From: Nitrospirota bacterium
GTDB lineage: Bacteria; Nitrospirota; Thermodesulfovibrionia; Thermodesulfovibrionales; SM23-35
Assembly: GCA_014859105.1 (NCBI GenBank)
Contig: JACUUX010000006.1
Span: forward strand, 1 to 64,000
Direction of reading: 5' to 3'
Length of the DNA: 64,000 bases
The notes under the pieces are model-generated. The model saw only the letters and a list, made by a program, of their open reading frames with translations, was not told the DNA's origin and ran no database searches. Of the stretch, positions 17,008 through 53,670 are shown piece by piece. The position numbers and the translations under genes are program-made. Position 1 is the first letter of the stretch. Every line of letters begins with the position of its first letter.

Positions 17008-17101
17008 AAGAATCCTCCTTTCAGGTGTTTGCTTATTTCATAGCCAGGTTTTATACAAAGAATTCTCCATGCTATGCATCGGGGTTTATACTTCCCTCTT
17101 C

Positions 17102-17170
17102 TGTCATTCCCGCCTGTCGGGAATCCTTTTGAGAAGACATCAGAAAGATTCCGGTCGAGCCGGAATGACA
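17102..17170. repeat. TGTCAT...ATGACA palindromic repeat
   Basis: 69 bp with ends TGTCATTCCCGCC and GGAATGACA and arms CCTGTCGGGAATCC and GATTCCGGTCGAGCCGG. Member of the dispersed family, located just after the P-type ATPase stop, so it may also serve as an mRNA 3' stem-loop. Confidence 0.8.
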
Positions 17171-17178
17171 ACTTTTCA

Positions 17179-19908: not shown

Positions 19909-19934
19909 GTATGCGTCACCTCCCTCTATCAGAA

Positions 19935-24432: not shown

Positions 24433-26823
24433 CTAAATATCAAAATTCAAAGTGTCCCCGGGCTTAATTTCATATATCTTTCCGCGGAAACAAATCTTCG
24501 CTATTATGTCTCTGTATCTGCTTGAAGTAATGGCCAGTACCTCCGGTGTTATATTGATGTCAAACCAGTTTCCCCTGTACTTAATCTTTAACATGAGTCT
24601 TTGCAAACCTTCAGGAATTCTCGGATTCAGATGGAGCAGCTCTTTACAGAATTCCATGCCTATATAGCACCTCTGAAGAATATCAACGGTCCCGGACATT
24701 GCGCCCACATGTATACCTTCGTGTGTAGTGCCTCCCTGAATATCCGAGATATCACTTTCCAATGCCTTATTAAAAAGATTCCAGGAGCGCGGGCGGTCTG
24801 ACCTGGCAAGAACCCACGAGTGGACAATATTGCTCAGGGTCGAACCGTTGGAACTCCGCTTTAGATAATATTCTATGTTTTTAGGTATAATCTGCGGATC
24901 AAAATCGTACCCCATCTCTTTAAAGAGTTCGTGCAGTTCCTCTGAAGAAAAGAGATAAAAAAGCATGAGTATATCAGCCTGCTTTGAAGCCTTATAACGG
25001 TTGGTGGTGTCTCCTTCGGCCTCGAGAATACGGTCAAGACGCTGTATATTGCCGTATTTTTTGAGATAACCCTCCCAGTCGAACTCCACTAACTCATTGT
25101 ATCCCTCGAACTGGCTGATTATGCCGTCATCATGAAAGACAACCCGCATCTTATGGATAATGTCCTGCCACTGGTCGATCTCGGGTTTCTCTAATTCAAT
25201 GGTTTCCTGAAGGTCATGCCTCCTTTTCGGGTTCAGCTGGTTGAGGGCTTTAATAGCAGTGCGCAATACCCAGACAGTCATTACGTTTGTATAGGCATTG
25301 TTATTCAGCCCCGGTTTTTCAGAGTCCGGGTATTTATCATGATATTCATCGGGTCCCATGACACCGAGGATTTCGTAGCGGCCTAGTTCCCTGTTATAAG
25401 AGGTGATACTTGCCAGAAATCTGGCAATTTCAAGGATCATTTCTGTACCATATGTGGCCATAAATTCCAGATCGCCTGTTGTTTCGAAGTATTGCCAGAC
25501 GTTATAAGCTATGGCTGCATTGACATGACGCTGGAGGTGAGTGTTGTCAGGAAGCCAGCGGCCTGATTTGGGATTAAGATGAAGCTGCTGTGTTTCCTCC
25601 CTTCCGTTGCTTCCGCTCTGCCAGGGATAGAGAGCGCCTTTAAATCCCGACTCTCGGGCTGCAAGTCGCGATCTGTTTAATCGCCTGTATCTATAAAGCA
25701 GCAGAGATCTGGTCAGCATAGGAATTCTCAAATTGAGATATGGAAAGATAAACAATTCATCCCAGAAAATATGACCCCTGTATGCCTCGCCGTGCCAGCC
25801 CCTTGCAGGCACTCCTATGTCAAGATCAATCGAGTTTCTGGAAACTGTCTGGAGCAGATGAAAGATGTGCAGACGGAGAATCATCTGTGTACGGTCATTG
25901 TCCGATACCTGAATATCGCATCTGTCCCAGAGATGATCCCATTCCATAATATGGCTATCGAATAATCCCTTGAAATTGCCGGTGTGCTTGAGAGCCTCAA
26001 CAGCATCCAGAGCAGGTTCAGAAATGGAAAAGTCTTTAGATGTATAAAAAGAAACAACCTTTTCAATAGTTACAGGTTTATTCTTTACCAAGTCAATAAA
26101 AAACTCATGGGCAATATATCCGGGCTCCTCAATAAGCTTTCTTTCAACCTCTATCTGTTCACCCTCAAAATAAACACAGGTTCTTGCTGCCTCTGCTATG
26201 CAAATGAGGGACTGATTGGTTTCCACCAGCAAATAAATTATGTCATCATTGACTTCTCCGCTCTTCACAGGCTCAAGATGCTTGCTGTTTAACTGCCTAT
26301 AACGTTCAACCCCTGCATTGATGACAGTTCCATCCAGGGCGGAGAGTATTTGAATGCGGCCTGACCAATTCTCAGGTATGATTGTACTTTCAAGTGCTGC
26401 AAGATGCATATTTGCCATATGTACTAAACGCCGTTGAATCAAGGTTGATTCACGATTTTGTCTATCTCTGAATCTCACTGTTCTTGAGAGAACGCCATCT
26501 TTCATGTTGAGTTCCTTGCGATAGAAAAGAATGTCAACAGACATCAGATTAAACCAGTCACCGTCTTCAGGCCTGAATTTCGTGAGTAACCAGTTTGGCA
26601 TATTAACCAGATCTTCATTTTCGACCACACGGCCTGCAATATCTGTTTTCAGCCGGTTATAACCTCCCGCGAGATATGTGCCCGGATAATGAATCTCGTC
26701 AGCCTCGGATTCCGGCGCTGCACCACGTGTCGCGAAATATCCGTTTCCAAGTGTGCAAAGGGCTTCCCTTAAATTCTCTTTTGCAGGGTCGAAATCTTCA
26801 TATAAAAGTGTCCAGTTATTCAT
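24433..26823 (-). CDS. GH65 disaccharide phosphorylase (trehalose/maltose/kojibiose type)
   Basis: 796 residues with the GH65 plan: N-terminal beta-sandwich (about 1-270), linker, (alpha/alpha)6 barrel (about 310-730) and a small C-terminal beta domain. Signatures: NGYFATRGA, GHIFWDELFIFP (350-361) and the catalytic acid Glu493 in MGPDEYH. The enzyme splits an alpha-linked disaccharide with phosphate to glucose and beta-glucose-1-phosphate. Specificity cannot be read from the sequence, but the upstream fused beta-PGM/trehalose-phosphatase gene points to trehalose or trehalose-6-phosphate. It overlaps that gene by 8 nt. ATG at 26823 has AAAGGAGGTGG. Confidence 0.92.
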   Translation of the reverse strand: MNNWTLLYEDFDPAKENLREALCTLGNGYFATRGAAPESEADEIHYPGTYLAGGYNRLKTDIAGRVVENEDLVNMPNWLLTKFRPEDGDWFNLMSVDILFYRKELNMKDGVLSRTVRFRDRQNRESTLIQRRLVHMANMHLAALESTIIPENWSGRIQILSALDGTVINAGVERYRQLNSKHLEPVKSGEVNDDIIYLLVETNQSLICIAEAARTCVYFEGEQIEVERKLIEEPGYIAHEFFIDLVKNKPVTIEKVVSFYTSKDFSISEPALDAVEALKHTGNFKGLFDSHIMEWDHLWDRCDIQVSDNDRTQMILRLHIFHLLQTVSRNSIDLDIGVPARGWHGEAYRGHIFWDELFIFPYLNLRIPMLTRSLLLYRYRRLNRSRLAARESGFKGALYPWQSGSNGREETQQLHLNPKSGRWLPDNTHLQRHVNAAIAYNVWQYFETTGDLEFMATYGTEMILEIARFLASITSYNRELGRYEILGVMGPDEYHDKYPDSEKPGLNNNAYTNVMTVWVLRTAIKALNQLNPKRRHDLQETIELEKPEIDQWQDIIHKMRVVFHDDGIISQFEGYNELVEFDWEGYLKKYGNIQRLDRILEAEGDTTNRYKASKQADILMLFYLFSSEELHELFKEMGYDFDPQIIPKNIEYYLKRSSNGSTLSNIVHSWVLARSDRPRSWNLFNKALESDISDIQGGTTHEGIHVGAMSGTVDILQRCYIGMEFCKELLHLNPRIPEGLQRLMLKIKYRGNWFDINITPEVLAITSSRYRDIIAKICFRGKIYEIKPGDTLNFDI

Positions 26824-28393
26824 AACCACCTCCTTTACATAATGGAACAAGTTTCAAAAGGAATTCGCGGACCTCTTCCGGATTCTTAAGACTATAAGAA
26901 GCTGCTGTTTCATAAGGTTCATCCCAGACAACAATTCCTGTACCACGACCTTTGAGTGCCCTGAATGCGTCTTCATCTGTTACATCATCTCCGATATAAA
27001 AAGGCAGAACTTCACCTCCATCTAGTTTCAATTCGCTGAGCAAGGTAAGCAGCGCCCTCCCTTTATGCCAGTCAATATCCGGCTGGAGCTCGAATATCTT
27101 TTTGCCGTATGCCTTTCTAAGTTCAGGATAGCCTGAAGCGACTTTATCCACGATCTCTTCTACAAGTTCAATCTTCTCCGGATTTACGAGGCGATAATGA
27201 ATTGCAATGGCGAATTTTTTCCGTTCCACAAGCATTCCTTCTATAAAGCGGAGCTTTTCAGAAAGTTCTTTTTCTGCTTTATCGAGAACAGGCAGGAATT
27301 CTGTTCCTGCCTGACTCTTTATATTTAATCCCTCGGGCCCTGAGATATCGAAGCCATGACTGCCGGCATATACTATAGAGTCTATATTCACCATCCGCTG
27401 AACATCTTTGAGGTCACGTCCGCTTATTATTCCGACAGTGCAATAATGGGAAAGTTTTATCACAGCTTCCCGCATGTCTTCTGAGATGATAGCCCTGTCA
27501 GGTGTTTCGACTATCGGGGTGAGAGTTCCATCATAGTCAAGAAAAACGGCAATGCGTTTACCCATTGCCTGATTGGCAATATCATTAACGCTGTCCAGTG
27601 CGGAAGGCAGGGTATGAATTACTTCAATATCATCCTTCACGCCGATTTCGGAGAGGTCTTCGACAGCTGCATCAGCTCCGTTTTTCAAAAGGGATTCTTT
27701 GTCGCCTGTCCGAGCCACACCGATCACAAGGCCGAATTTACCGGCACGCCCTGCCTGAACACCTGAAATTGCATCTTCAATCACAACTGCACGTTCGGGT
27801 TTCACCTTTAGCTGTCTTGCTGCCTCGAGGAATATATCCGGCGCAGGCTTGCCCTTAATGCCCAGAACTTCAGAATCAACGCCATCTACCCTGACATCAA
27901 ACAAATCGGAAAGGTTTGCCGAATCAAGGATCAGGGCACAATTTTTACTCGAGGATATTATGGATGTTTTAAAGCCGTGCTTCTTCAGGCAATGTATAAG
28001 ATCAACTGTTGATCTGTAAACTTCAGCTCCATGTTCCTGAATGTACTTCAGAAAATAGTCATTTTTCAGATTTCCGAGGCCATTAATGGTTTCTGTGCCG
28101 GACAAATCATCTGATTGCCCTTCAGGCAGTTCAATGCCCCTTGACTGAAGGAAGCTTTTCACGCCGTCAAAACGCGGTTTTCCATCAACATAAAGGCGAT
28201 AATCTCTGTCAATATCAAAAGGTTGAAAAGACAAGTTCTGACGGGCAGCATATTGAGAGAGAAACTCATCAAACATCCTCTTCCACGCCTCTGCATGCAC
28301 GGTTGCGGTATCGGTGACCACTCCGTCAAGGTCAAAGATGACGGCATCAAAGGCTGTCTTTGATATTGTGTATGCCGTTTTTTTGTAAACCAT
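26816..28393 (-). CDS. Fused beta-phosphoglucomutase / trehalose-6-phosphate phosphatase
   Basis: 525 residues with two HAD domains. Residues 12-255 form a beta-phosphoglucomutase: DLDGVVTD (Asp21/Asp23), SSSKN, GKPAPDIF and VIEDAISGVQAG. Residues 279-515 form an OtsB-type trehalose-phosphatase: FLDYDGTLTP (Asp286/Asp288), GIISGR and GDDVTDEDAF. The first converts beta-glucose-1-phosphate to glucose-6-phosphate; the second removes phosphate from trehalose-6-phosphate. Both are complete at their catalytic motifs. No OtsA is present in the window. The 8-nt overlap with GH65 indicates one functional unit. Confidence 0.9.
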   Translation of the reverse strand: MVYKKTAYTISKTAFDAVIFDLDGVVTDTATVHAEAWKRMFDEFLSQYAARQNLSFQPFDIDRDYRLYVDGKPRFDGVKSFLQSRGIELPEGQSDDLSGTETINGLGNLKNDYFLKYIQEHGAEVYRSTVDLIHCLKKHGFKTSIISSSKNCALILDSANLSDLFDVRVDGVDSEVLGIKGKPAPDIFLEAARQLKVKPERAVVIEDAISGVQAGRAGKFGLVIGVARTGDKESLLKNGADAAVEDLSEIGVKDDIEVIHTLPSALDSVNDIANQAMGKRIAVFLDYDGTLTPIVETPDRAIISEDMREAVIKLSHYCTVGIISGRDLKDVQRMVNIDSIVYAGSHGFDISGPEGLNIKSQAGTEFLPVLDKAEKELSEKLRFIEGMLVERKKFAIAIHYRLVNPEKIELVEEIVDKVASGYPELRKAYGKKIFELQPDIDWHKGRALLTLLSELKLDGGEVLPFYIGDDVTDEDAFRALKGRGTGIVVWDEPYETAASYSLKNPEEVREFLLKLVPLCKGGGYE

Positions 28394-32543: not shown

Positions 32544-33545
32544 TTACGTACAAACATTTTTGGGATTTCCTTCTATAAATGAACCGATATTGTCCAGAGT
32601 GGTATAAAGAATTTTTTGCACGGCTTCACGTGTATAAAAAGCACTGTGGGGTGTAATAAAAACATTTCTCAGACGCAACAGAACATGGTTTGCCAAAAGT
32701 GTTTCCATATTATGCTTCTTCTGATAAATGGAACGCAGTAGTTCCGCCTCCTCCCGCACAGTTGGTTCCTCTGGAAGCACATCTAAACCAGCTGCTGCAA
32801 CTTTACCTTCAGAAATGGCATGCAGCAAAGCCTGAATATCTATCAAAGTGCCTCTGGCTGTATTGATAATAATTACACCGTCCTTCATTTTTTCGAATTG
32901 CTCCGTGGAAAGAAGATGATGGGTAGCTTTAGTGGCAGGCACATGGAGGGTAATAACATCCGATTTATTGAGCAATTCATCCATCCCGACATAGTGAAAA
33001 TCCAAATGTGATGCAAATTCTTCATCAGGTTTTACATCGTAGGCCACAACATTCATACTGAATCCCTTCGCGATTTTAATTACGCAACGGCCTATGTTAC
33101 CAGTACCAATAACTCCCAAAGTCTTGTCGCACAGGTCAAATCCTTCCAGTCCCTTCAATGAAAAATCACCTTTACGCGTCCGGTCAACCGCATCGACGAG
33201 TCTGTGACTTATTGTGAGCAAAAGACCAAAAACATGTTCTGCCACTGTATTATCCCCATATGCCGGCACATTGCACACTGTTATACCTTTTTTCTTGCAA
33301 TACCCGATATCTATATGATCAATACCCGCGGAACGTGTCGCTATAAGCTTCAGATTGCTGAATTTTGCAAGGACATCTGCGCTTAAATCCGAGTAGATAA
33401 AAGGAGATATGATATCAGCATCTGCATATTGACCGGCATTATCTTCAGCCGGCCGTTCATCTGTCATTTTGAATTCGTGCTCGTTTTTTAGAATCTGACA
33501 CGGTTCACATTCCCATGGTTCTGTTTCAAAAAAAATAATCTTCAT
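32544..33545 (-). CDS. D-isomer-specific 2-hydroxyacid dehydrogenase (D-lactate dehydrogenase-like)
   Basis: 333 residues, NAD-dependent reduction of a 2-oxoacid, most likely pyruvate to D-lactate. Catalytic Arg in NTARG, Glu in LPEEP and His in TPHSAFYT are all present; NAD motif GTGNIGR (about 149-155) with Asp in VVAYD. The long segment between the Glu and His motifs (RSIYQKKHNMETLLANHVLLRL) is typical of LdhA-type enzymes. AAAGGAGGCTAATAG precedes the ATG. Sits next to ppsA, so pyruvate fate is a shared theme. Confidence 0.88.
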   Translation of the reverse strand: MKIIFFETEPWECEPCQILKNEHEFKMTDERPAEDNAGQYADADIISPFIYSDLSADVLAKFSNLKLIATRSAGIDHIDIGYCKKKGITVCNVPAYGDNTVAEHVFGLLLTISHRLVDAVDRTRKGDFSLKGLEGFDLCDKTLGVIGTGNIGRCVIKIAKGFSMNVVAYDVKPDEEFASHLDFHYVGMDELLNKSDVITLHVPATKATHHLLSTEQFEKMKDGVIIINTARGTLIDIQALLHAISEGKVAAAGLDVLPEEPTVREEAELLRSIYQKKHNMETLLANHVLLRLRNVFITPHSAFYTREAVQKILYTTLDNIGSFIEGNPKNVCT

Positions 33546-33640: not shown

Positions 33641-35008
33641 TTACTCTGTAATTTTTGAACCTTCCGAGCCTGCCGGATATTCCGCAAGCGGCACCTTATC
33701 CTGTGACCATACCTCGAGGATGGGCTCTACAATTCTCCATGATTCTTCTGCTTCGTCATCACGTATAAAAAGGTTCTGCCTGCCATCCATAATGTGCAGC
33801 AGAAGGCGCGCATATGCTGACAGACGCTGAGGGGTAAGTTTCCTTGTAAGTTCCGTGTACTTGAGGTCCAGGGCTTCGCAGGGAGTAGTGATATTTACAC
33901 CCAGAGCTATACGGTCGGGATTAAGCTCCAGCCTTATAATGTTTCTCCGGACTGTATCTTTGCCGAAAGCGAGATGTGGTAAGGGTTTGAAAGTAAGAAT
34001 AATCTCCATGCGATCTCCGGCCAATGCCTTGCCCGTACGAAGGATAAAAGGGACACCTGCCCATCTCCAGTTGTCAATCCAGAGGGTGACTCCGGCAAAG
34101 GTTTCTGTTCTGCGTTCGGGATCAATACCTTCCTCATCTATATAAGCAGGTACTTTATGTTCTCTGATACGACCTTTACTGTAACGGCCGCGCACAGTCC
34201 ATCGCCTGACCTCCTCTTCTGTCAGTCTCCTTACAGCACGCATTACATCTACCTTTCTGTCCCTGAAGTCACGCTCTGACAGGGTGCATGGAGGCTCCAT
34301 AGCTATAATGCAGAGCAACTGGAGGAGGTGATTCTGGATCATATCTTTGAGTGCTCCTACCTTATCATAATACGAGGCACGGCCTTCAAGCGTCAGGGTC
34401 TCGTCCCAGATTATTTCTACTTTTTCAATATGTAGACCGTTCCACAGAGGTTCAAATATGCGGTTGGCAAACCTGAGTCCGAGTATATTGTGAACGGTCT
34501 GTTCTCCGAGAAAGCTGTCAATGCGGAATACCATATGTTCGGGGAAATTCATATGGAGGAGGTGATTGAGGGTCTGTGCAGAAGAGATATCCTCGCCAAA
34601 AGGTTTCTCTATCACGATAGCGCTGCCTTCAGGTATGTTCATTGCGGCAAGGGCTTCAACTACAGGCCCGAAAAGACCGGGCGGGAGTGCGAGATAAAAA
34701 ACAGCAGGTTCTTTAACCGGGCCGAGGGCTTCAAGAATGTCTTCCCTGATAGAGGCATCGGCCTGCCGGTATTCGAGCATATCCAGCATGGCCTTTCGGG
34801 ATGAAGAAGTAATACCCGGAGACAGCCTTTCAAGTTTTTCATCGATATGCCTGCGGAAGGATTCGGTATCCCAGTCCTTGCGTGCTACACCAATGATGCT
34901 GAATCCGTCAGGAAGGTTATCCGCATCGTAAAGTTCTGATAAGGCAGGTATAAGATACCTGAAAGTAAGGTCGCCTGTTGCACCAAAAATTATGAAATGC
35001 CTTTTCAT
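33641..35008 (-). CDS. Divergent glucose-6-phosphate dehydrogenase-like protein
   Basis: 455 residues with the Zwf fold: GATGDLTFRYL (9-19), EKPFG (134-138), YYDKVGALKDMIQNH (213-227). The catalytic base His227 and Lys135 are kept, but the substrate-binding signature RIDHYLGKE reads RIDSFLGEQ (162-170) and the RKL lysine is Tyr18. Relative to the Leuconostoc enzyme this is Lys21 to Tyr, His178 to Ser, Tyr179 to Phe and Lys182 to Glu, so three polar or basic contacts to glucose-6-phosphate are lost. It may act on an unphosphorylated or otherwise different sugar. Its start overlaps the GH15 stop by 4 nt (ATGA). Family certain, substrate open. Confidence 0.85.
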   Translation of the reverse strand: MKRHFIIFGATGDLTFRYLIPALSELYDADNLPDGFSIIGVARKDWDTESFRRHIDEKLERLSPGITSSSRKAMLDMLEYRQADASIREDILEALGPVKEPAVFYLALPPGLFGPVVEALAAMNIPEGSAIVIEKPFGEDISSAQTLNHLLHMNFPEHMVFRIDSFLGEQTVHNILGLRFANRIFEPLWNGLHIEKVEIIWDETLTLEGRASYYDKVGALKDMIQNHLLQLLCIIAMEPPCTLSERDFRDRKVDVMRAVRRLTEEEVRRWTVRGRYSKGRIREHKVPAYIDEEGIDPERRTETFAGVTLWIDNWRWAGVPFILRTGKALAGDRMEIILTFKPLPHLAFGKDTVRRNIIRLELNPDRIALGVNITTPCEALDLKYTELTRKLTPQRLSAYARLLLHIMDGRQNLFIRDDEAEESWRIVEPILEVWSQDKVPLAEYPAGSEGSKITE

Positions 35009-36825
35009 TTTTTAACCTCTTTGATAAGACGGGAAAGATTTATACCACTGGAGATTAATCCCACATGACTGAACGCCTGTGGAAAGTTTCCAAGGAAAGC
35101 ACCGCTGCGGGGGTCGATTTCTTCCGGAAGCAGACCGAGGTGATTTACTCTACTGCAGAGCGAATCATACAGATACATCGCTTCGTCGAGACGGCCCTGT
35201 TTTGAAAGATTATCCACCAGCCAGAAGCTGCATAGCAGGAATGCTCCCTCATGTCCCTGCAATCCGTCCGGTGATTCATCGGGAATGTAGCGGTACAGAA
35301 GTCCGTTGCCGGCGCCGAGGCGTTCCATGATGGCATTTGTTGTAGCCACCATTTTTGGATGGTCAGCCTGAATAACACGCCTTAGCGCCAACGCTAAAAG
35401 ACTGGCATCCAATCCTCCACCTCCGAGGTGTTCGGTTATTGAACCGACATCCGTATCCCATGCCTCCTCAAGAATAGTCTTTTTAATTCGTTCCGCCTCG
35501 GCCCGCCAGCCACTGATATCACCGGGAAGGCTTAACCGCTCAGACAGACGTGCACCCCTGTCAAGTGCGACATGGCACATTGCAGCGGAATATGTAAACG
35601 GGCGCCCTGCTGTCCTTACCTCCCATATACCGTGGTCAGGGTTTTGCCATTCCATCCGCGCGCGCTCGACAAGACGTTGAAGCCGCGACCATAATGTCTC
35701 ATCGAGTTCCCCTCCCCACCTTGTCCACTGGTAGGCGCAGTCAAGTATTTCACCGTATACGTCATGCTGTTTCTGATCCGCAGCAGCATTTCCCCAGCGG
35801 ACAGGGGAGGATTTCCGGTACCCTTCGAGGTCAGAGTCTTCCCTCTCAGGAGGCGGCTGATGGCCGCGCAGATCGTAAAGCACCCGGGGACGTCCCTCCC
35901 TTTCAATCGCGTCGAGGACCCAGCCGAGAAAACTCGATGCCTCCCGGCTCAATCCGATCCTTTTGAGGGCATATACGGAAAAGGCTGCGTCGCGGATCCA
36001 CGCATATCGGTAATCCCAGTTACGCTGCCCGCCTATGGCCTCTGGCAGGGATGAAGTCGGCGCCGCTACTATAGCACCTGTCGGAGTATAATCAAGGAGT
36101 TTAAGAGTAATTGCGGAACGGCGGACCAGCGCTTCCTGCGGCCCATTATACTTGAAATGCTCTATCCATCTGTGCCATGCCCTGATGGTTTCTTTCAGAA
36201 TTCCTTCCGGTGAATAAAAGTGGTATCTGTGAGTGCCTCCTTCCCATCTCAAAATCGTATAGAAGTGTTTCCCTGCCTTAAGTTCAATGGCTGTTTTCAG
36301 TCCTTTCAGCGGGACCGAAGAGAAAAGATAGATATCCATTTCAGGCTGCAAAAGCCATTTGATCTGCAATCCTCCGCCGTATCTCTCTATTTCAGCGCCT
36401 CCCCTTGGTTCTATCTCAACACTAAGTTTTACATTCCCCTGAAGCACCTCCGCCATCCTGATGAGTTCCGATCGTCCGGCCGGTGCATCCTCTGTAAGAT
36501 CAGTACCTGAACGAAGGGTCAGAACATCGGTAATCTTCACCAGCCCCGAAGAGCTCCTCATCTCCGTAACGAGCACACCGGTGTCAGATTCATAATACTG
36601 GGAGGTCTCAATGATGCCTTCGGGAGCTATACTGAAAGCCCCTCCCTTTTTTGAATCAAGTAGACTGCAGAACATCGGTTGAGAATCAAAGTAGGGTATG
36701 CACATCCATGATATGGCACCGTCAATTCCTACAAGGGCTGCGGTGCTGCAGTCGCCAATCAGGCCATGGTCTTTTATAGGTACATAGCCGTCAATCCTTT
36801 CTACTGGCTTAAAGGTTGCTTTCAT
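35005..36825 (-). CDS. GH15 glucoamylase/trehalase-family hydrolase
   Basis: 606 residues. N-terminal beta-sandwich (about 1-230) with the motif LIGDCSTAALVGIDGAISWMC, then the (alpha/alpha)6 barrel: GGQRNWDYRYAWIRDAAFS, WEVRTAGRPFTYS and the C-terminal LLPEEIDPRSGAFLGNFPQAFSHVGL with the catalytic base Glu. Substrate is an alpha-glucan or trehalose; bacterial members of this subgroup include trehalases. Product is free glucose. ATG at 36825 sits 17 nt inside the end of the cyclase gene; its stop overlaps the Zwf-like start by 4 nt. No signal peptide, so it is cytoplasmic. Confidence 0.88.
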   Translation of the reverse strand: MKATFKPVERIDGYVPIKDHGLIGDCSTAALVGIDGAISWMCIPYFDSQPMFCSLLDSKKGGAFSIAPEGIIETSQYYESDTGVLVTEMRSSSGLVKITDVLTLRSGTDLTEDAPAGRSELIRMAEVLQGNVKLSVEIEPRGGAEIERYGGGLQIKWLLQPEMDIYLFSSVPLKGLKTAIELKAGKHFYTILRWEGGTHRYHFYSPEGILKETIRAWHRWIEHFKYNGPQEALVRRSAITLKLLDYTPTGAIVAAPTSSLPEAIGGQRNWDYRYAWIRDAAFSVYALKRIGLSREASSFLGWVLDAIEREGRPRVLYDLRGHQPPPEREDSDLEGYRKSSPVRWGNAAADQKQHDVYGEILDCAYQWTRWGGELDETLWSRLQRLVERARMEWQNPDHGIWEVRTAGRPFTYSAAMCHVALDRGARLSERLSLPGDISGWRAEAERIKKTILEEAWDTDVGSITEHLGGGGLDASLLALALRRVIQADHPKMVATTNAIMERLGAGNGLLYRYIPDESPDGLQGHEGAFLLCSFWLVDNLSKQGRLDEAMYLYDSLCSRVNHLGLLPEEIDPRSGAFLGNFPQAFSHVGLISSGINLSRLIKEVKK

Positions 36826-37480
36826 AGAAAGGCTCCCTTTTCTTTCCAAGCACCGCCCTTGCAGGGGCGCCGTCACTGTTGAGAATCTTCAGCGGAAGAC
36901 ATATAAGTTCGTATATTCCCCCTTTAACTTCCGATAGGTCAAGACCTTCTATAATCCAGATACCTGCTTCAAGGAGAACACGGTGCACTTCTTTGCCATT
37001 TTTCCCATATCCTCCTACTGAGAGATAGTCAATACCTACTGTCCTGACAGCTTTTTCAGCAAGAAAATGTGCTGCTCCGGTAGAAATGTATATAAAGTCC
37101 TCGATGAAGGAATCGGTCTTCCAGCACCTTTCGGAATTTCCGGTCTTGAACAGTATCCTTTCCCCACTGCATATGCTATGAGCTACAAGTTCTTCTGGTT
37201 TGATGGATTCATGATCAAAAATTTCTATTACCCGTGCAGCACCTATTGTTGCATCAAAAGGCATCTCATCGAGCCCTTTACCTGTTTGTATGAAATGAAG
37301 CGGTGCATCCATATGAGTCCCGGAATGCGAACCCATAGAAATAGCCGAGAGATTAGCCTTGTCTCCCCGTTCCATGTCTAAGGTCATTTCTATAAGAAAT
37401 GGCGGGTCGCCAGGCCAGTGAACCATTCCGGTCTTTAATGTTACTGAAATATCGATCCATGCCCTTTCCTCATTCAACAC
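36809..37480 (-). CDS. Cyclase/kynurenine-formamidase-family metal hydrolase
   Basis: 223 residues of the PF04199 family: metal motif HSGTHMDAPLHF (52-63), early TLKTGMVHWPGDPPF and a later GIDYLSVGGYG stretch. Members hydrolyse amides or lactone-like bonds with a divalent metal. The start is GTG with GGAGGTG 8 nt upstream. It overlaps the GH15 gene by 17 nt, giving a coupled cyclase-GH15-Zwf-like unit. A role in opening the lactone made by the Zwf-like enzyme is possible but unproven. Confidence 0.82.
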   Translation of the reverse strand: MLNEERAWIDISVTLKTGMVHWPGDPPFLIEMTLDMERGDKANLSAISMGSHSGTHMDAPLHFIQTGKGLDEMPFDATIGAARVIEIFDHESIKPEELVAHSICSGERILFKTGNSERCWKTDSFIEDFIYISTGAAHFLAEKAVRTVGIDYLSVGGYGKNGKEVHRVLLEAGIWIIEGLDLSEVKGGIYELICLPLKILNSDGAPARAVLGKKREPFYESNL

Positions 37481-37552: not shown

Positions 37553-38440
37553 TCATTTACTCTCCTTTACAACATGCAGGGGAGGAGCCTGCCCCTGCTT
37601 GTCCTGCCCCATATATAAAGTCACATGCGGAAATGGGATCTCTATGTCTCTCTCATCGAATCTCTTCTTGAGGCGGCGGTTGAATTCCCGGCCCACACGC
37701 CATTGCTTTATAGGAATTGTCGTGGTGCGTGCTCTGATTATGATTGCCGAGTCAGCAAATTGATCCAGTCCCAATATTTCTATTGGCTCGAGTATATCAT
37801 CTTTATACGCCGGGTCATTGCGCATTTCCTCGTCAACTTCCTTAATAACCTCAATAACCTCATCCACATCCTCCCGGTATGCAACGCCTATATCGAATAC
37901 ATACCTTGAATAGTCTTTCGTCATGTTTGTAACAACATCGATCTGACCGTTCGGTACATAGTGGACATTACCAGCCAGATCCCTGAGAATTGTCGTTTTA
38001 AGATTTATCTTCTCGACCAAACCGCCTTTCCCGGCTATCTGGACCACATCGCCTACTCTTATTTGATCTTCCAGAAGGATGAAAAAACCACTGATTACGT
38101 CTTTCACCAGACTTTGTGCACCGAAACCAACTGCCAGACCGACTATACCTGCAGCAGCGAGGATTGGGCCGATCTCTATTCCGAACTTCTTTAACACCAT
38201 CATTGACGCCATAATAATAATCACTATGCTCAGGACATATTTAAGGATCGAACCGAGTGTCTGGGTCCGCTTCTGAAATTCCGGGTCTTCTTTCTTTCTG
38301 ATAACTACAGTTATAAGCCGTATTGAGAGCATCTTTGCAGCCTTCAACGCCACCAGGGTTAAGATTAATGTAAAGACGATTTGCAAGCCGTTTGTCAGTG
38401 ACCAGCTTATCAATTTCTGGAGATAAGTATTGATATCCAT
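37553..38440 (-). CDS. MscS-family small-conductance mechanosensitive channel
   Basis: 295 residues, close to E. coli MscS in length. TM helices at about 15-35, 65-85 and 92-120, the last being the pore helix (ILAAAGIVGLAVGFGAQSL), then the beta domain DQIRVGDVVQIAGKGGLVEKINL and YVPNGQI, then the cytoplasmic alpha/beta domain. It releases osmolytes on hypo-osmotic shock. 72 nt upstream of the cyclase gene. Confidence 0.92.
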   Translation of the reverse strand: MDINTYLQKLISWSLTNGLQIVFTLILTLVALKAAKMLSIRLITVVIRKKEDPEFQKRTQTLGSILKYVLSIVIIIMASMMVLKKFGIEIGPILAAAGIVGLAVGFGAQSLVKDVISGFFILLEDQIRVGDVVQIAGKGGLVEKINLKTTILRDLAGNVHYVPNGQIDVVTNMTKDYSRYVFDIGVAYREDVDEVIEVIKEVDEEMRNDPAYKDDILEPIEILGLDQFADSAIIIRARTTTIPIKQWRVGREFNRRLKKRFDERDIEIPFPHVTLYMGQDKQGQAPPLHVVKESK

Positions 38441-46204: not shown

Positions 46205-49200
46205 TCAATCATTAAGCCTTTCCATAACGGTTACAGGAAAATTTAAAAAGACCTCGGAAAGAGCTAAAGATGTAGCATTTTTATAATTCCGGGCAGTTAG
46301 AGTTTCACCGGTAAATATATTGCAGTACTTTGTTCCGTCCTCTGCAAAAGGCACTACTATAAAAGAATCATTCCAGACTGCCTTGCCAAGTGGAAGGTCC
46401 TCCGGTTGGGATATGAGCTTTGTAAAAAATCTCGGAGCAGCAATTACTATTTCTCTATTCGCTATCCTTCTCGCAAAGGCACATACATTGTCTGCCTTCC
46501 CTTCCATAACCTCGAGGGGCAAATACTCTCCTCTGTCAAACAGGGCCCTTTTTTCCCTGCGATAATTGAGAGACTTATAAAGCAAATAAAGCTTTATCAT
46601 CCCGTTTTCCCTATTTATGGTTAATTCCCTGGCCAGATCCTGAAGAGGGATTTCTGACTGGCGACTCCTTAATTTTTGCAGCATTTTCTTTCTGACTTCA
46701 TAATCGACGGGCCTGCGGTTGTCCGGATCAACGAGACTGAAATCCCAGATGTCGGTGCCCTGATAAAAATCGGGGACACCCGGGGAAGTTATTTTCAGAA
46801 GCGTCTGTGAAAGGGAATTATATAAACCATAATTCGAGATAATTTTCTGAAAGCTTGTGAAATCTTTAAGGAATTGGTTGTCGGATTTATTATTCATAAT
46901 TTTATTAATGAAAATCTGCAGAGCATCTTCATAAATGGTATCCGGATTTATCCAGCTTGTATTTACCTTTGCTTCCCTTATAGCCTTTAACATATAACTT
47001 ATGATTCTAATTTTAAAATCTTCATATTCTTCTTCATTTTTGATTTCTATTGGCCATGCGCCAATAAGTGTTTGGTATAACAGATACTCTTCATTGCGGT
47101 CAGGCACAGTCCGTCCGTCAACAAGTACTTTTGCTTTTTTATTCAGACGGCTCCAGTAAATCGACCTTTTTTTCCACTCATCAGGAATCTCTGAAAGAAC
47201 ATTTATCCTTGCCCTGACATCCTCGCTTCGTTTAGAATCATGTGTGGAAGATGCTATTAATGCATGCGGCCAGAATTTCAATCTCTCTATATTCATTCCA
47301 TGAAATGCTTCAAGGGATATACCGAATCTGTCGGGACTGCCTCCCACTTCATTGAGTGAAACCAGGCGGTTATAAACATAAAAAGAGGTATCCTCAAGCC
47401 CCTTGGCCATAACCGGGCCTGTAATCTTCTGCCATCTCATTACAAAATCAAGCCATTCATTTTTTTCGTCATCGCCGAAATTTTCGGGAAATTTAAGCAA
47501 AAGTACATCCTTCAGGAAATCAAAGATCAAGGTACTTATGGCCGGATTGGTTCTTTTTGCTTTTGACACAGCAGCCTCTACATACTGTCTATCTTTATCT
47601 TTTACTTTCATTGAATTTGTATAGGTTCTGTAAACAGGGAAAAATGCAATAACTTCTATAATTACGCTTGTAAGACTGTTTAAGGTAAAGTCTCTTGTAT
47701 GCCTGTTTTTCTCGGAAATCCGGTTGAGAAAATGCCCGAGAGAATTTATCTCGCTTGACATGGCTACTTTCATTATTAACTTCTTCTTCTCATATACAAC
47801 ATCCTGGAAATTTATCTTCAACTTAGTGAATTTTGAGTATATATCATCAAATGCTTTAGCACTACCCGTTTCAACAAAAATACCATTTAAGGCATTCAGA
47901 AAGACATAACCCGTAGTGCTGAAGATAGGCCAATCTTCAGGCATTCTCTCGCCTTTTGAGAGTATCTTCTCGCCTATAATATAGAAAGGTTTAAATTGCG
48001 GATCTTTAGATAAAAATTCATCATACTCATTAAGTATTTCCTCTTCTAAATCTGAGTGTTCATAAGGTTGCGAAATCTCCTTTTTCACTCCCTCAGAATA
48101 ACTGAGTCGTGTCTGGAGAAAACACTTGCGCTGTAATTTATGAAAGTACCCGGATGGATCATATAAGCCGTCAGGGTGATCTATCCTTAATCCGGTTACC
48201 TTTCCCTCCTTGATAAGTCTCATTAAAAGTCTGTGCGTATCCTCGAATACAGCAGGATTCTCCATCCTTATTGCTGCAAGACTGTTAATATCGAAAAATC
48301 TTCTGTAATTTATCTCTTCTGTAGCAACACGCCAATAGGATAGTCTGTAAGCCTGTATATTGAGGAGTTCGTCGAGGAGGTCGAAGCTCCCCGGATCGCC
48401 TTTTATTCCGTTAAATATGCGGACATTTTCATTAATAAAATCTTTTATTTCGGAGCTTTCATTATATAGAGTCCAGAGTCGCTTTTTGATTATCTCTTTT
48501 TCCCTGCATCTCTCTACAACTTTTTCCGGGTCTGTTTCCATGTATGGGGGAAGATGGTCGAGTGCGGTTATAATGCTCAGGAGTTCAACATAATGAGGGT
48601 TATCAGAAGATAAAATATTTTCGAGTTCGTCAATACGATGTTTCAATATAAAAATATATGTCTTGGGGATTATGGGGAATTTGTTTTCAAAATAATAAAG
48701 AAAAAATGCACCCTCTTCAAAAGCTAAACTCAATTCCTGTGCCTCAAGTATATTTCCATACTGGTCGCCCAAAACAGGCAGAAGTATCTTGTTTTTGAGC
48801 TCTTTCTTTAATGGACCCCAGTCGATATCAAAATAATCTGCGTAAATAGAACTTGGACCATTCTCAAGTACATCCATCCACCAGATATTATCCTTACTCT
48901 CGATACACATGTGATTTGGAACTATATCAATTACCTGGCCCATGTCATATTTCTGAAGGTCTGCGACTAATTCATTATATTCTTCCTCTGTGCCGATCTC
49001 GGAATTTAGAGAGTTATGGTCAACAATGTCGTACCCGTGGGGACTCCCCGCTTTTGCCTTAAAATAGGGAGAGGCATAAATATCACTTATGCCAAGATCA
49101 TAAAGATAACCGATGATGTTCCTTGAATCGGGAAATCTGAAATTTCTATTGAATTGTAATCTATAGGTTGAAGCTGGAATTCTTGGCAGTAAAAGGACGT

Positions 49201-49210
49201 CTTTTTCCAC
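46205..49210 (-). CDS. treY: Malto-oligosyltrehalose synthase TreY
   Basis: 1001-residue GH13 enzyme that turns the reducing end of a malto-oligosaccharide into a trehalosyl unit. Signatures: PASTYRLQFNRNFRF at the N-terminus, YASPYFKAKAGSPHGYDIVDH, DIVPNHM, GLRIDHPDGLYDP with the nucleophile Asp, and SSTHDSKRSEDVRARI. The length fits a large TreY. I chose GTG at 49210 (VEKDVLL) because AAAGGAGGTGTCAG lies before it; the six-codon longer frame starts with TTG inside that site. It lies 14 nt downstream of the GH57 gene. Confidence 0.93.
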   Translation of the reverse strand: MEKDVLLLPRIPASTYRLQFNRNFRFPDSRNIIGYLYDLGISDIYASPYFKAKAGSPHGYDIVDHNSLNSEIGTEEEYNELVADLQKYDMGQVIDIVPNHMCIESKDNIWWMDVLENGPSSIYADYFDIDWGPLKKELKNKILLPVLGDQYGNILEAQELSLAFEEGAFFLYYFENKFPIIPKTYIFILKHRIDELENILSSDNPHYVELLSIITALDHLPPYMETDPEKVVERCREKEIIKKRLWTLYNESSEIKDFINENVRIFNGIKGDPGSFDLLDELLNIQAYRLSYWRVATEEINYRRFFDINSLAAIRMENPAVFEDTHRLLMRLIKEGKVTGLRIDHPDGLYDPSGYFHKLQRKCFLQTRLSYSEGVKKEISQPYEHSDLEEEILNEYDEFLSKDPQFKPFYIIGEKILSKGERMPEDWPIFSTTGYVFLNALNGIFVETGSAKAFDDIYSKFTKLKINFQDVVYEKKKLIMKVAMSSEINSLGHFLNRISEKNRHTRDFTLNSLTSVIIEVIAFFPVYRTYTNSMKVKDKDRQYVEAAVSKAKRTNPAISTLIFDFLKDVLLLKFPENFGDDEKNEWLDFVMRWQKITGPVMAKGLEDTSFYVYNRLVSLNEVGGSPDRFGISLEAFHGMNIERLKFWPHALIASSTHDSKRSEDVRARINVLSEIPDEWKKRSIYWSRLNKKAKVLVDGRTVPDRNEEYLLYQTLIGAWPIEIKNEEEYEDFKIRIISYMLKAIREAKVNTSWINPDTIYEDALQIFINKIMNNKSDNQFLKDFTSFQKIISNYGLYNSLSQTLLKITSPGVPDFYQGTDIWDFSLVDPDNRRPVDYEVRKKMLQKLRSRQSEIPLQDLARELTINRENGMIKLYLLYKSLNYRREKRALFDRGEYLPLEVMEGKADNVCAFARRIANREIVIAAPRFFTKLISQPEDLPLGKAVWNDSFIVVPFAEDGTKYCNIFTGETLTARNYKNATSLALSEVFLNFPVTVMERLND

Positions 49211-49224
49211 CTGACACCTCCTTT

Positions 49225-51669
49225 TCAATCTGCTGGCAGCACTGATGAAATATTAAAAAACAACATTTCCCCCAGATATTTGAACGTTGCCACCCATATT
49301 TTTGCATTCTCGTCACCCTGCCTTGATTTGAAAAGAAAGTCCCTGTATGATGCCTTCACAATTTTGTAATAGACATTCTGGCTCTGCCAGTAATTTATTT
49401 CAATAGGTAATGATTTAATCAGCTCCAGCATTTTCTGTATATCAAAAAGCAAGTTAATATCAGATGGATTTTGATACAGGTTATCCATCAACTTCTTTAC
49501 TCTGCCCCTCACCATAAATTCAATTTCAACCGAATCCAGAGGTACTTTCCATTTTTTCATTTCAATAATTATATTCTGAACCCTCTCCACATCTATTACT
49601 TCATCCTGAAAAGCCTTTTTAATATCAATATTGAGTATGAACTCTGCTGCTGAATAAAATGCTTTTTTTACAGGCATTCCAATATCCTGCAGAAAACCCA
49701 TCAAAATCCTGTTATTCTCATACATTCGGCGATATATATCCTCAAACTCTTCGAGTGTCTTGCTGATGAGAAAATTAAGGATGTTACGTTGCTGATCCTT
49801 GAATAAATTTATAAGAGAATAACTGTGTGTGCCAAAATGTGCATCCATAAGCCTGACAATGTCGGCAAAAGCACCTTTTTCAAACGTTGCAATAATCTCC
49901 TCTTTCATCGATTGATAAGCTTCGGGTCCGATAAAAGTACGCACACCACCGTTTAAGGCATGTCCACCGAAATGCATAACACAGAAACTTGTCAATTCTG
50001 ATTCACCTGTTATATTGGAAGAGACCGAGACTTTCCCCACAGCAAGTTTTGCAGTGCCGGCCTCTATTTTCTGATAATCTTCTCTTTTAACACAATAACT
50101 GTAAATAGTTGTGTCATCAATATATTCTTCGAAAAGGGAACTCAAAGCATAATGAGCAGCAACTTTCTTGAGATCAATCATAGCCGGTTTTACAAACTTT
50201 TCGAATATTTTAGCTCCGTTTTCATACTCAGGAATATTGCTTTTTGCTATCGAAAGCCGCATTTTAAAGGCATCCTCAAGGCCGTCTTTGTATAGATCAT
50301 CCGATAATTGTATTGCCCTGCCTGCATATTGCATCACCTGTACTGTTTCAATACCTGAAAGCTCATCAAAAAACCAGCCGCAGCTCGTATACATCAACAT
50401 TGCATGTCTCTGCATTTCAAGCAACTTTAATACATTGACCCGATCTTCTATAGAAAGGTTTCTCAGGGAGTGCTCGATGAGAAATCCCTTTACTGAGTTC
50501 TCGGAACGGTCGAGGGTTACATAAATATAATCATCCCTTGCTTTCCACGGATCTTTAAGATATTGCCTGGCGAGCGTTTCGTAGATAGAAGACAAGCGGT
50601 CCCTTAGCCAATCAAAGGCTTCACGGAGCGGCTTTCTCCATGCCTGATTCCATCCTGAATGACCGCCGGAATTACATCCGCAGTCGCTCCTCCACCGTTC
50701 AATTCCATGTATACAGCTCCATGAAGAATTCTCAAAGATCTGGACTTCATGTGTCGGAGGGTGCTTTTCGAGATATTCACCATAACTCGCAAGCCTTGCC
50801 ATTCCGTTCGTCTCCATATAATTAAGGGCATAGGCGAGTGCCATATCACCGAACCTATAATGATGTCCGTATGTCTCACCATCGGTTGCGACGTGGAGGA
50901 TCTGCGGCCAATCCATCGAGTCAGAAAAACCGGAAAGAAGACGATGTGCAAATTCTTCCCCTCTTTTTAAAAGATCATGGAATGCAATCGCCTGGGAAAT
51001 AGGGCCGTCATAAAAGAAAATATTTATTGCCCTGCCGGATGGCAATCTGCAAAGATAAGGCCTTGTAGGATCGACCATCGAATCGCTGACGTCTTTCCAT
51101 CTGCCGGTGCCGATTTTCCTTGTTAAAGAGGCCTGTCGCGGAGCAAGAATGGTGAACTTAATACCGGATTCAGCGAGAATCTCGAGCGCCTCGATATCTA
51201 CTGCAGTCTCCGGAAGCCACATGCCTTCAGGGAACCGCTTAAATCTGTGTTCGAAATCTCTGATACCCCATATCACCTGTGTCCGCTTGTCTCGCGTATT
51301 AGCTAAAGGCATAATAAGGTGATTATATGCCTGTGCAATTGCATTACCATGACCTGAACGCCATTGGATACCCTGTCTGTCTGATTCAAGTATAGCCTGA
51401 TAGATTTCCGGTTTATTCTTTTCCATCCATGAAAGCAGGGTTGGTCCGAAGTTAAAGCTCATTTTCGCATAATTGCTCACAATATCGAGTATCCTGCTTT
51501 CAGCATCAAGTTTTCTGGCTGCGGAGTTCGGGGCGTAACATTCGGCATTGACCCTTTCATTCCAGTCATGATAGGGATATGCAGAATCCTGTATCTCTAT
51601 AGCCTCAAGCCATGGATTCTCCCTCGGAGGCTGATAAAAGTGCCCATGTATGCAGACATATCTTTCCAT
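49225..51669 (-). CDS. GH57 glycoside hydrolase with DUF3536
   Basis: 814 residues. N-terminal GH57 catalytic domain with YVCIHGHFYQPPRENPWLE, GHGNAIAQAYNHLIMPLAN and WLPETAVDIEALEILAESGI; the C-terminal DUF3536 region (about 480-800) is helical. GH57 includes amylases, 4-alpha-glucanotransferases, amylopullulanases and branching enzymes; with DUF3536 the exact activity is not established. Placed just before treY, it may trim or transfer glucan chains that feed TreY. No signal peptide, so cytoplasmic. Confidence 0.87.
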   Translation of the reverse strand: MERYVCIHGHFYQPPRENPWLEAIEIQDSAYPYHDWNERVNAECYAPNSAARKLDAESRILDIVSNYAKMSFNFGPTLLSWMEKNKPEIYQAILESDRQGIQWRSGHGNAIAQAYNHLIMPLANTRDKRTQVIWGIRDFEHRFKRFPEGMWLPETAVDIEALEILAESGIKFTILAPRQASLTRKIGTGRWKDVSDSMVDPTRPYLCRLPSGRAINIFFYDGPISQAIAFHDLLKRGEEFAHRLLSGFSDSMDWPQILHVATDGETYGHHYRFGDMALAYALNYMETNGMARLASYGEYLEKHPPTHEVQIFENSSWSCIHGIERWRSDCGCNSGGHSGWNQAWRKPLREAFDWLRDRLSSIYETLARQYLKDPWKARDDYIYVTLDRSENSVKGFLIEHSLRNLSIEDRVNVLKLLEMQRHAMLMYTSCGWFFDELSGIETVQVMQYAGRAIQLSDDLYKDGLEDAFKMRLSIAKSNIPEYENGAKIFEKFVKPAMIDLKKVAAHYALSSLFEEYIDDTTIYSYCVKREDYQKIEAGTAKLAVGKVSVSSNITGESELTSFCVMHFGGHALNGGVRTFIGPEAYQSMKEEIIATFEKGAFADIVRLMDAHFGTHSYSLINLFKDQQRNILNFLISKTLEEFEDIYRRMYENNRILMGFLQDIGMPVKKAFYSAAEFILNIDIKKAFQDEVIDVERVQNIIIEMKKWKVPLDSVEIEFMVRGRVKKLMDNLYQNPSDINLLFDIQKMLELIKSLPIEINYWQSQNVYYKIVKASYRDFLFKSRQGDENAKIWVATFKYLGEMLFFNISSVLPAD

Positions 51670-51837: not shown

Positions 51838-53670
51838 TTAAACCTTTTCTTTCATATATACTGCCAGACTCTGCCCCCTTAGGTTTATCTCCTCGCCTTG
51901 ACCTATTTTTCCCGGTAGAAATGTTCCAGGCCCGTTCCATTCTTTTTCTGACGAATCAAAAATTTTCTTCCAGACCCCTTCCGGCAGAGAGAAGTTAATA
52001 ATTCTCCTGTCATCCCTGTTAAAGTTCGACATTATGAATACGTGGCTTTCTTCCTTCCATCTGCTGATCAGTAAAATCCTGTCTTCCCCGAATCCATAAG
52101 CATCAAGCCTTTCTCTGTCAAGAGCCGAAAGGGCAGGGATTTCTCTTCTCAATCTTATTAGTGATTTATAAAAATTTAATAATACTCTGTGATTGCCTGA
52201 GTTTCTCTTTTCCCATTTTATTCTGGATTTCAGAAATGTTTCCTCACTCTGGGGGTCCGGCGGCTCTGCCCTCCATTCGAACGCCTTGAATTCTTCTTTC
52301 CTTCCTTTCCTCACGGCTTCGATTAAATCAGGATCAGAATGACTTACAAAATATAGAAACGGTATGTCTTCTCCGTACTCCTCACCCATGAAAAGAAGCG
52401 GTATATATGGTGAAAGCAAAACTGTACCGGCTGCAAGTTTCAGCGACTCAAAAGAGACAAGATTTGTTAACCTCTCTCCAAACATCCTGTTTCCTGTCTG
52501 GTCATGATTCTGAGAAAAGACAATAAATTGCCGGGCAGTCCTGTCCTTCGAAGAATTGCCGTGGTTCCTCTTTCTGTATTCAGAATATTGTCCTGAATAA
52601 ACAAATCCCTCCATTAAAGATTTTTTCAGGTTATCCATTCTGCCAAAATCAATATAATATCCATTTTTCTCACCGGTAATAAGCGTATGTAATGCATGAT
52701 GAAAATCGTCACACCATTGAGCATCAAAACCATATCCACCCGATTCTTTCGGTCTGATAACTTTTGAATCGTTTAAATCACTTTCTGCTATCAGGTAATA
52801 TATCCTTCCTTCACTTAATGAAAACTCCCTGACCCTGTCTGCAAGTTCCTGCAGAAATGGTGTGGCACTCAGATCCGAGATGCCATGTATTGCATCAAGC
52901 CGCAGGCCATCCATATGGTAATTTTTAAACCAGTGCAGGGCATTCTCTATGAAAAAGTTTCTTACCTCATTACTGTAAGCCCCATCAAAATTTACAGCCA
53001 TACCCCATGGTGTTCTGTATTTATCAGTAAAATACGGTCCGAAATCCCATAAGTAGTTGCCCTCTGGTCCGAGGTGATTATAAACAACATCAAGTATAAC
53101 TGCCATACCCATCCTATGACATTCATTAACAAGTTTTTTAAGACCATCAGGTCCTCCGTAGGAGTTTTGCACGGCAAAAAGATAGGTGCCGTCATACCCC
53201 CAGTTTCTTTCACCCGGGAATTGTGCTACAGGCATTATCTCAATAGCATTTATTCCTGTTTCTTTAATATCGGGAAGGCGGTTGATTATGGAATCAAAAG
53301 TGCCTTCAGGAGTAAAAGTGCCTACATGCAGTTCATAAATTATCATTTCAGAGAGTGCAATTCCTCTCCAACTTCCATCTTCCCAGTGAAAAGAGTTATG
53401 GTCGATTAATTGAGAAGGGCTATGCACTCCCTGTGGTTGATAGTGAGATACAGGGTCAGGTCTTTCAGTTTGATTATTCAGATAATAGAAATATAAAGTG
53501 TCCGGGTAAACCCCTTCTGCAACTTTCTTCCAATAGCCTTTCCTGTCTTTTTCCATTTGAATAACGTGCTGTTCGGGAGAGGCTATTTTTAATTTAACAC
53601 TATCCAGAAATGGTGCCCAGACCACAAATTCACACCTCCCGGTATCTGTGTAATTTGCCCCGACTTTCAT
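51838..53670 (-). CDS. treZ: Malto-oligosyltrehalose trehalohydrolase TreZ
   Basis: 610 residues, GH13. It releases free trehalose from the product of TreY. N-terminal early-set domain (about 1-90), then YELHVGTFTPEGTFD, EIMPVAQFPGERNWGYDG, GLRLDAIHGI with the nucleophile Asp, LIAESDLND with the acid Glu and FSQNHDQTGNR. The first base of its ATG is the last base of the glgB TAA, so translation is coupled. treY lies about 2.6 kb further on, split from it by GH57. Confidence 0.95.
   Translation of the reverse strand: MKVGANYTDTGRCEFVVWAPFLDSVKLKIASPEQHVIQMEKDRKGYWKKVAEGVYPDTLYFYYLNNQTERPDPVSHYQPQGVHSPSQLIDHNSFHWEDGSWRGIALSEMIIYELHVGTFTPEGTFDSIINRLPDIKETGINAIEIMPVAQFPGERNWGYDGTYLFAVQNSYGGPDGLKKLVNECHRMGMAVILDVVYNHLGPEGNYLWDFGPYFTDKYRTPWGMAVNFDGAYSNEVRNFFIENALHWFKNYHMDGLRLDAIHGISDLSATPFLQELADRVREFSLSEGRIYYLIAESDLNDSKVIRPKESGGYGFDAQWCDDFHHALHTLITGEKNGYYIDFGRMDNLKKSLMEGFVYSGQYSEYRKRNHGNSSKDRTARQFIVFSQNHDQTGNRMFGERLTNLVSFESLKLAAGTVLLSPYIPLLFMGEEYGEDIPFLYFVSHSDPDLIEAVRKGRKEEFKAFEWRAEPPDPQSEETFLKSRIKWEKRNSGNHRVLLNFYKSLIRLRREIPALSALDRERLDAYGFGEDRILLISRWKEESHVFIMSNFNRDDRRIINFSLPEGVWKKIFDSSEKEWNGPGTFLPGKIGQGEEINLRGQSLAVYMKEKV

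Follow-up and report, generated by a model that had tools for sequence, protein, structure and literature searches.

The 64,000-nucleotide (nt) stretch of Nitrospirota DNA analyzed here (assembly GCA_014859105.1, contig JACUUX010000006.1, positions 1 to 64,000; referred to as the window) encodes a Zwf-like protein with the domains of glucose-6-phosphate dehydrogenase (G6PDH), in which the catalytic residues are intact and the residues on the phosphate side of the active site are replaced. The protein lies within a clade spanning five phyla, in parts of which the gene is linked to genes of the GH15 and PF04199 families. On balance we lean towards reading it as a putative NAD(P)+ glucose 1-dehydrogenase of the G6PDH fold that acts together with a candidate PF04199 gluconolactonase. 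The genes concerned are as follows.

33641..35008, minus strand: Zwf-like (G6PDH-fold) dehydrogenase, 455 aa (PF00479/PF02781); proposed NAD(P)+ glucose 1-dehydrogenase.
34514..34516, minus strand: Ser165 codon (AGC) of the Zwf-like gene, at the Leuconostoc mesenteroides His178 position; His in 133/133 other homologues.
35005..36876, minus strand: GH15 protein with a trehalase-type N-terminal domain (PF00723 and PF19291, TREH_N); probable trehalase.
36809..37480, minus strand: PF04199 (Cyclase) metal-dependent hydrolase, from its Pfam match; proposed gluconolactonase.

The coordinates bear out the original prediction of three overlapping open reading frames (ORFs) on the minus strand, including the 4 nt overlap of the Zwf-like and GH15 genes, and Pfam domains agree with the GH15 and PF04199 identities it assigned. 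The overlap of 17 nt given for GH15 and PF04199 is correct if GH15 starts at an internal ATG (36825) and becomes 68 nt from the first GTG (36876).

Membership of the Zwf family is clear, with the G6PD_N and G6PD_C domains both above their curated Pfam cut-offs. The protein also exceeds the cut-offs of two NCBIfam zwf models (TIGR00871, 445.1 versus 400.6 bits; NF009492, 516.1 versus 428), so that annotation pipelines would probably name it G6PDH; it falls under the cut-off of a third, NF004331. An AlphaFold2 model built with 25 aligned sequences has a mean predicted local distance difference test score (pLDDT) of 89.7, and the 50 Foldseek matches listed for it are all G6PDHs (probability 1.00, TM-score to the query 0.82-0.91).

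Active site residues were compared in an alignment of the window protein with 133 homologues (n = 134; 50 from the clade and 84 others), from which sequences shorter than 380 aa, the partial match G444 among them, were left out. Phosphate is held by His178 in the L. mesenteroides enzyme, whose base, His240, is partnered by Asp177 (PMC6471386), and in human G6PD residues H201, Y202 and K205 contact glucose-6-phosphate (G6P; PMC10556143). The window equivalents of His240, Asp177 and Lys148 are His227, Asp164 and Lys135, leaving the catalytic set intact, and these three together with Asp222 are kept in 134/134 aligned sequences; the retention of His227 and Lys135 that had been claimed is thus confirmed. 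On the phosphate side, where we take Lys21 to act, Lys21, His178 and Lys182 are replaced by Tyr18, Ser165 and Glu169, and Phe166 occupies the Tyr179 position. The alignment confirms all four assignments of the original prediction, and the motifs it quoted, RIDSFLGEQ and GDLTFRYL, are present in the translation. Its counting of Tyr179 as a lost residue does not hold, as Phe is an ordinary occupant, found in 44 of the 84 sequences outside the clade. A further change is Asp332, at a position whose role and numbering (Lys343; human Arg365) we assume. It is D, E or N in 43/50 clade members; because the others vary there (K or R in 40/84, Q in 40/84), Asp332 is weaker evidence.

Ser165 is the sole departure of the window protein from columns with a conservation of 95% or more among the 133 other sequences. 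General decay of the gene is rejected on this count, and a sequencing error is unlikely with the other highly conserved columns intact; a single base-call error cannot account for Ser165 because AGC is two bases from either His codon. The residue after GK in the motif GKAL is A or G in all 50 clade members and R in 76/84 others, although as a mark of new function it is doubtful, given that human G6PD presumably also has A there.

A tree of 79 sequences, built after removal of the trait columns, places the window protein inside a 36-row clade with a Shimodaira-Hasegawa-like approximate likelihood ratio (SH-aLRT) support of 100. Its members come from the Nitrospirota, Actinomycetota, Acidobacteriota, Myxococcota and Thermomicrobiota, and their branching order is poorly resolved. 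Lys21 is lost in all 49 resolved clade members (Y 24, F 22, L 2, H 1) and is K or R in 80/84 others, the remaining 4 having neither; Glu183 is replaced in 50/50 members. Loss of Lys182 is seen in 22/50 members (M 9, W 5, L 4, E 2, R 1, Q 1) and in 0/84 others. Parsimony on the 79-row tree requires 3 changes for Lys21 and 8 for Lys182. Judged from the sequences, the substitutions of the original prediction differ in kind, that of Lys21 marking the clade, that of Lys182 being recurrent, that of His178 private and that of Tyr179 uninformative; the check it proposed, whether they define a clade, gives a positive answer for Lys21 and a negative one for the others, Lys182 being kept in 28/50 members.

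Besides their clade member, 11/12 genomes examined carry one or more further Zwfs; G402, the remaining one, shows a single Zwf. The second Zwf of the window genome is on contig C79, with neighbors read as rpe, rpiB, gnd, transketolase and transaldolase. Among relatives of the window genome's family and order, 12/40 have matches (36-41% identity), and all 14 rows from these 12 fall outside the clade in the 79-sequence tree. Across the Nitrospirota, 23/395 genomes, the window genome included, match the Zwf-like protein at E <= 1e-120, and in the Rubrobacterales 12/39 match the L021 protein at E <= 1e-110. The Zwf-like gene was probably acquired by transfer. Further Nitrospirota clade members (L020, from N. 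moscoviensis, and L131-L139) possibly have other specificities; some carry odd motifs such as GAGSDVACRYV and DHFLGMPI, and no GH15 or PF04199 gene was found in the flanks covered by the 10-kb neighbor search.

The search for neighbors within 10 kb used tblastn and single query proteins, and can miss diverged homologues. GH15 is found near 24/50 clade members and 0/84 other Zwfs, and gnd near 0/50 and 66/84 respectively. PF04199 is near 11/50 members, one of them (L008) by a partial 43% match, and 0/84 others; the window, whose re-fetched locus was short, is tallied without PF04199, and adding it ourselves makes 12/50. Flanks are unequal, and with at least 2 kb on both sides (37/50 clade and 44/84 other members) the counts are 16/37 versus 0/44 for GH15, 11/37 versus 0/44 for PF04199 and 0/37 versus 38/44 for gnd; the 84 others are rich in Thiobacillus and Nitrosomonas, so Fisher tests on linkage overstate independence. 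The clade is thus linked to GH15 and PF04199 and not to gnd, and the refuting outcome named in the original prediction, no link to this neighborhood, did not arise. The PF04199 gene lies upstream, downstream or on the other strand of the Zwf-like gene depending on lineage, and the persistence of linkage despite changing gene order argues for joint function. Two Nitrospira-side genomes have a phosphoketolase gene near the Zwf-like gene (L004, 13527-15995; L124, 10613-13096).

In Entner-Doudoroff metabolism, a 2-keto-3-deoxygluconate (KDG) kinase is needed only where dehydration of the sugar acid precedes its phosphorylation. A KDG kinase gene lies near 5/11 Rubrobacterales members, four of which also have a 2-keto-3-deoxy-6-phosphogluconate (KDPG) aldolase and one a gluconate/galactonate-type dehydratase; these neighbors fit an acid without phosphate, gluconate or one like it, and not 6-phosphogluconate. 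The G434, G438 and G431 loci contain a sugar porter, a weak beta-phosphoglucomutase (beta-PGM) match, GH65, the Zwf-like gene and KDG kinase. G438 and G431 also have a trehalose-6-phosphate (T6P) phosphatase, G434 and G438 a KDPG aldolase, and G438 a PF04199 gene; the G431 contig stops inside KDG kinase. The G401 locus comprises T6P phosphatase, GH65, PPK2, a sugar porter, the Zwf-like gene, PF04199, KDG kinase, KDPG aldolase and the dehydratase, and the G402 locus has KDG kinase and KDPG aldolase. The Rubrobacterales KDPG aldolases are above the eda cut-off. GH65 homologues lie <3 kb from the Zwf-like gene in 4 Rubrobacterales genomes, and the beta-PGM (28-31% identity) and trehalose-phosphatase homologues in these loci are separate. 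R. taiwanensis, with no KDG kinase nearby, has a gluconokinase-like FGGY gene ~4 kb downstream (547.9 versus a cut-off of 648.55), and in a Bryobacteraceae locus a gluconate/galactonate-type dehydratase is 1.7 kb from the Zwf-like gene. Lys182 is absent in 7/7 members with gluconate-type neighbors (W in 5, M in 1, R in 1; Fisher 0.0017), an association that is post hoc, comes mostly from one order, ignores kinship and includes one member with Arg.

The best NCBIfam match of the GH15 protein is the trehalase TreH1 (331.3 bits versus a cut-off of 820), and a PDB search with it gave 9 matches, all to repeat or designed helical proteins and none to a GH15 structure. Zwf-type enzymes use the beta anomer of their sugar. 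GH15 is known to include trehalases, and trehalases are inverting enzymes (PMC10969515). The PF04199 protein keeps the HxGTHxDAPxH motif as well as two C-terminal residues, H and E, of the KynB alignment, and is KynB-like in a PDB search (127 bits to 4co9). It scores below the arylformamidase cut-off of TIGR03035 (156.7 versus 223.05), on which basis an ordinary arylformamidase was rejected. The metal motif is retained in the linked PF04199 proteins, which also have a conserved RTVGxDYLSV block in common. The metal-binding motifs and whole domain are those of kynurenine formamidase KynB and isatin hydrolase, whereas the RTVGxDYLSV block and the neighborhood point to another substrate. No PF04199 gluconolactonase is described in the open-access literature among the matches listed.

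From these features we infer a route in which the Zwf-like enzyme would have given up its grip on phosphate and would oxidize free beta-D-glucose at C1 with NAD(P)+. Its chemistry would be retained in the base His227, the partner Asp164 and Lys135, and the C6-phosphate pocket would be remodelled by Tyr18, Ser165 and Glu169 in place of Lys, His and Lys, with Asp332 in place of Lys, Arg or Gln. The GH15 trehalase, with GH65 also nearby, would free glucose, the Zwf-like enzyme would convert it to glucono-1,5-lactone, and the PF04199 metal-dependent hydrolase would open the lactone to gluconate. In some Rubrobacterales, gluconate would pass on through the dehydratase, KDG kinase and KDPG aldolase in a semi-phosphorylative Entner-Doudoroff pathway. 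The broader proposal, that G6PDH-fold glucose dehydrogenases of several phyla and a PF04199 gluconolactonase form an ATP-free trehalose-to-gluconate shunt that feeds Entner-Doudoroff metabolism in some Rubrobacterales, is more tentative and may well not hold in full.

Several observations weigh against glucose oxidation. The protein clears two zwf cut-offs, 26/50 clade members have no GH15 within 10 kb, and His178 is kept in 49/50 members (the window protein being the only loss) and Lys182 in 28/50, so many relatives may still use G6P. No KDG kinase was found close to the gene in 6/11 Rubrobacterales members. The KDG kinase (scanned in L021 and L154), dehydratase and gluconokinase matches are under curated cut-offs, because of which 2-keto-3-deoxygalactonate (KDGal) or other sugar acids may be the compounds handled. 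Genes of the ROK glucokinase type are present in two Rubrobacterales loci (G434 and G438), and in one locus of this order the Zwf-like gene overlaps at its 3' end with a weak match to polyphosphate-glucose kinase. The window genome encodes a ROK kinase for which glucose could be a substrate, and has no KDPG aldolase (PF01081), no FGGY kinase and no GntK above cut-off (its matches are far below), and KDPG aldolase is absent in 18/26 genomes tested, including 10/10 on the Nitrospira side and R. taiwanensis. As these genes are lacking, a complete gluconate route is not visible in the window organism, and a full Entner-Doudoroff or gluconokinase route there is unsupported. The originally predicted oxidation of an unphosphorylated sugar followed by lactone opening is thus favored by the clade, the GH15/PF04199 linkage and the Rubrobacterales KDG kinases, but not by a full route in the window organism. 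The window genome also has no TIGR01198 6-phosphogluconolactonase despite its canonical-side second Zwf; with this gene present in 24/26 genomes and a weak PF10282 match as the only alternative, the PF04199 protein could serve the second Zwf.

This last point suits an unlikely but serious alternative, in which the window protein is still a G6PDH, a second isozyme that is perhaps differently regulated and holds phosphate through other residues such as Arg333 (Arg in 46/50 clade members), with PF04199 as a stand-in 6-phosphogluconolactonase. The zwf equivalog scores and the His178 and Lys182 kept by relatives are as such an isozyme would have them, and G6P could be made in the window genome by the ROK kinase and the beta-PGM-type haloacid dehalogenase (HAD) protein. 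It fits poorly with the simultaneous change of Lys21, His178 and Lys182 in the window protein, with another Zwf already in the genome, with the lack of gnd near any of the 50 clade members and with the KDG kinase linkage in Rubrobacterales, and 10/10 other tested genomes with linked PF04199 do have a pgl gene. The varied replacements of Lys182 (M, W, L, E, R, Q) may instead mean several substrates, and the enzyme might act on some other aldose, one that is uncharged or carries a different substituent and again comes from the metabolism of glucan or trehalose (such as kojibiose, maltose, glucosamine, xylose or galactose), a reading we consider improbable. GH65 relatives include kojibiose and maltose phosphorylases and the matched KDG kinase models also cover KDGal, yet the GH15 and GH65 neighbors both indicate glucose as product, and the set of PfkB kinase, aldolase and dehydratase suits gluconate at least equally. 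It is very unlikely that in the window organism the protein is inactive or has a regulatory role, with its private change of His178 to Ser marking loss of function. His178 is indeed universal among the other homologues and the window genome lacks the downstream gluconate genes that were looked for, but the ORF is full-length within an arrangement of overlapping genes, Ser165 is the single departure at highly conserved columns, the base, its Asp partner and the coenzyme-side Lys are intact, and the structure model is confident.

The proposed glucose 1-dehydrogenase shares its fold, base, Asp partner and coenzyme-side Lys with canonical Zwf proteins (L. mesenteroides 1e77, Z. mobilis 7xhl, human 2bhl), but differs in the replacement of Lys21, His178 and Lys182, in the acidic residue at the Lys343 position, and in that GH15 and PF04199, not gnd, are the clade neighbors. 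Mammalian H6PD (GDH-6PGL, 8em2) also belongs to the Zwf family and couples oxidation to a lactonase domain; it keeps the phosphate residues and oxidizes free glucose weakly besides G6P. It differs from the window enzyme in being eukaryotic and fused to a pgl-type lactonase. In the semi-phosphorylative Entner-Doudoroff pathway, KDG kinase, KDPG aldolase and, at one locus, the dehydratase have counterparts near the Rubrobacterales Zwf-like gene, although here the first two steps would fall to a Zwf-fold enzyme and a PF04199 hydrolase. The short-chain NAD(P)+ glucose 1-dehydrogenase GDH1E5, of metagenomic origin, performs the reaction proposed here (glucose to gluconolactone), but is a protein of ~330 aa without the Zwf domains of the window protein (PMC3891874). 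No bacterial Zwf-fold free-glucose dehydrogenase is described in the open-access literature among the matches listed.

The other features of the window relevant to these genes are the following.

24433..26850, minus strand: GH65; closest solved relative trehalose-6-phosphate hydrolase 9lb6; second possible glucose source.
26816..28393, minus strand: beta-PGM-like HAD protein fused to trehalose-phosphatase, from domain and NCBIfam search.
32544..33545, minus strand: D-2-hydroxyacid dehydrogenase (PF02826/PF00389); next gene downstream of the Zwf-like gene, after a 95-nt gap.
37553..38440, minus strand: MscS-family mechanosensitive channel, upstream of the Zwf-like/GH15/PF04199 trio.
46205..49228, minus strand: TreY malto-oligosyltrehalose synthase (TIGR02401 above cut-off).
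51838..53670, minus strand: TreZ malto-oligosyltrehalose trehalohydrolase (TIGR02402 above cut-off).

The trio is part of a trehalose/alpha-glucan island with genes for GlgX, alpha-glucan phosphorylase, a PfkB-type kinase, pyruvate kinase, glyceraldehyde-3-phosphate dehydrogenase (GAPDH), GH65, the beta-PGM/trehalose-phosphatase fusion, phosphoenolpyruvate (PEP) synthase, TreY, GH57, TreZ, a GlgB-type protein, TreS-maltokinase, GlgE and sugar-type ABC transporters. Such a gene set makes trehalose synthesis here likely, and GH15 would then release glucose from the trehalose formed. The segment 7638-60953 sets glycogen, GlgE and trehalose genes amid those for PfkB-type kinase, GAPDH, pyruvate kinase and PEP synthase, together with MscS, a P-type ATPase and a sub-cut-off CPA2 match, and suggests a stress-linked carbon store. 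A homologue of the MscS gene (55%) adjoins the Zwf-like gene in L013. Within the island, positions 12001-20000, which cover pyruvate kinase, alpha-glucan phosphorylase, PfkB and the P-type ATPase, have a G+C content of 0.52-0.54, compared to 0.46-0.49 in the adjoining 4-kb blocks and ~0.44 beyond, and are possibly a separate transfer. The GH65 gene and the fusion (24433-28393) resemble a split form of the large mycobacterial OtsB1, as we take its domain make-up to be. The function of OtsB1 is called unknown in PMC11046441.

If free glucose is indeed the substrate, 'glucose-6-phosphate dehydrogenase' would be the wrong name for part or all of a clade that standard models may label zwf, and the enzyme could be wrongly assigned to the pentose phosphate pathway when the metabolism of Nitrospira, Rubrobacter and others is modelled. 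The clade would provide a natural example of a central-metabolism enzyme shedding its phosphate requirement, PF04199 would gain a new lactonase activity, and stored trehalose would be used in an ATP-sparing manner.

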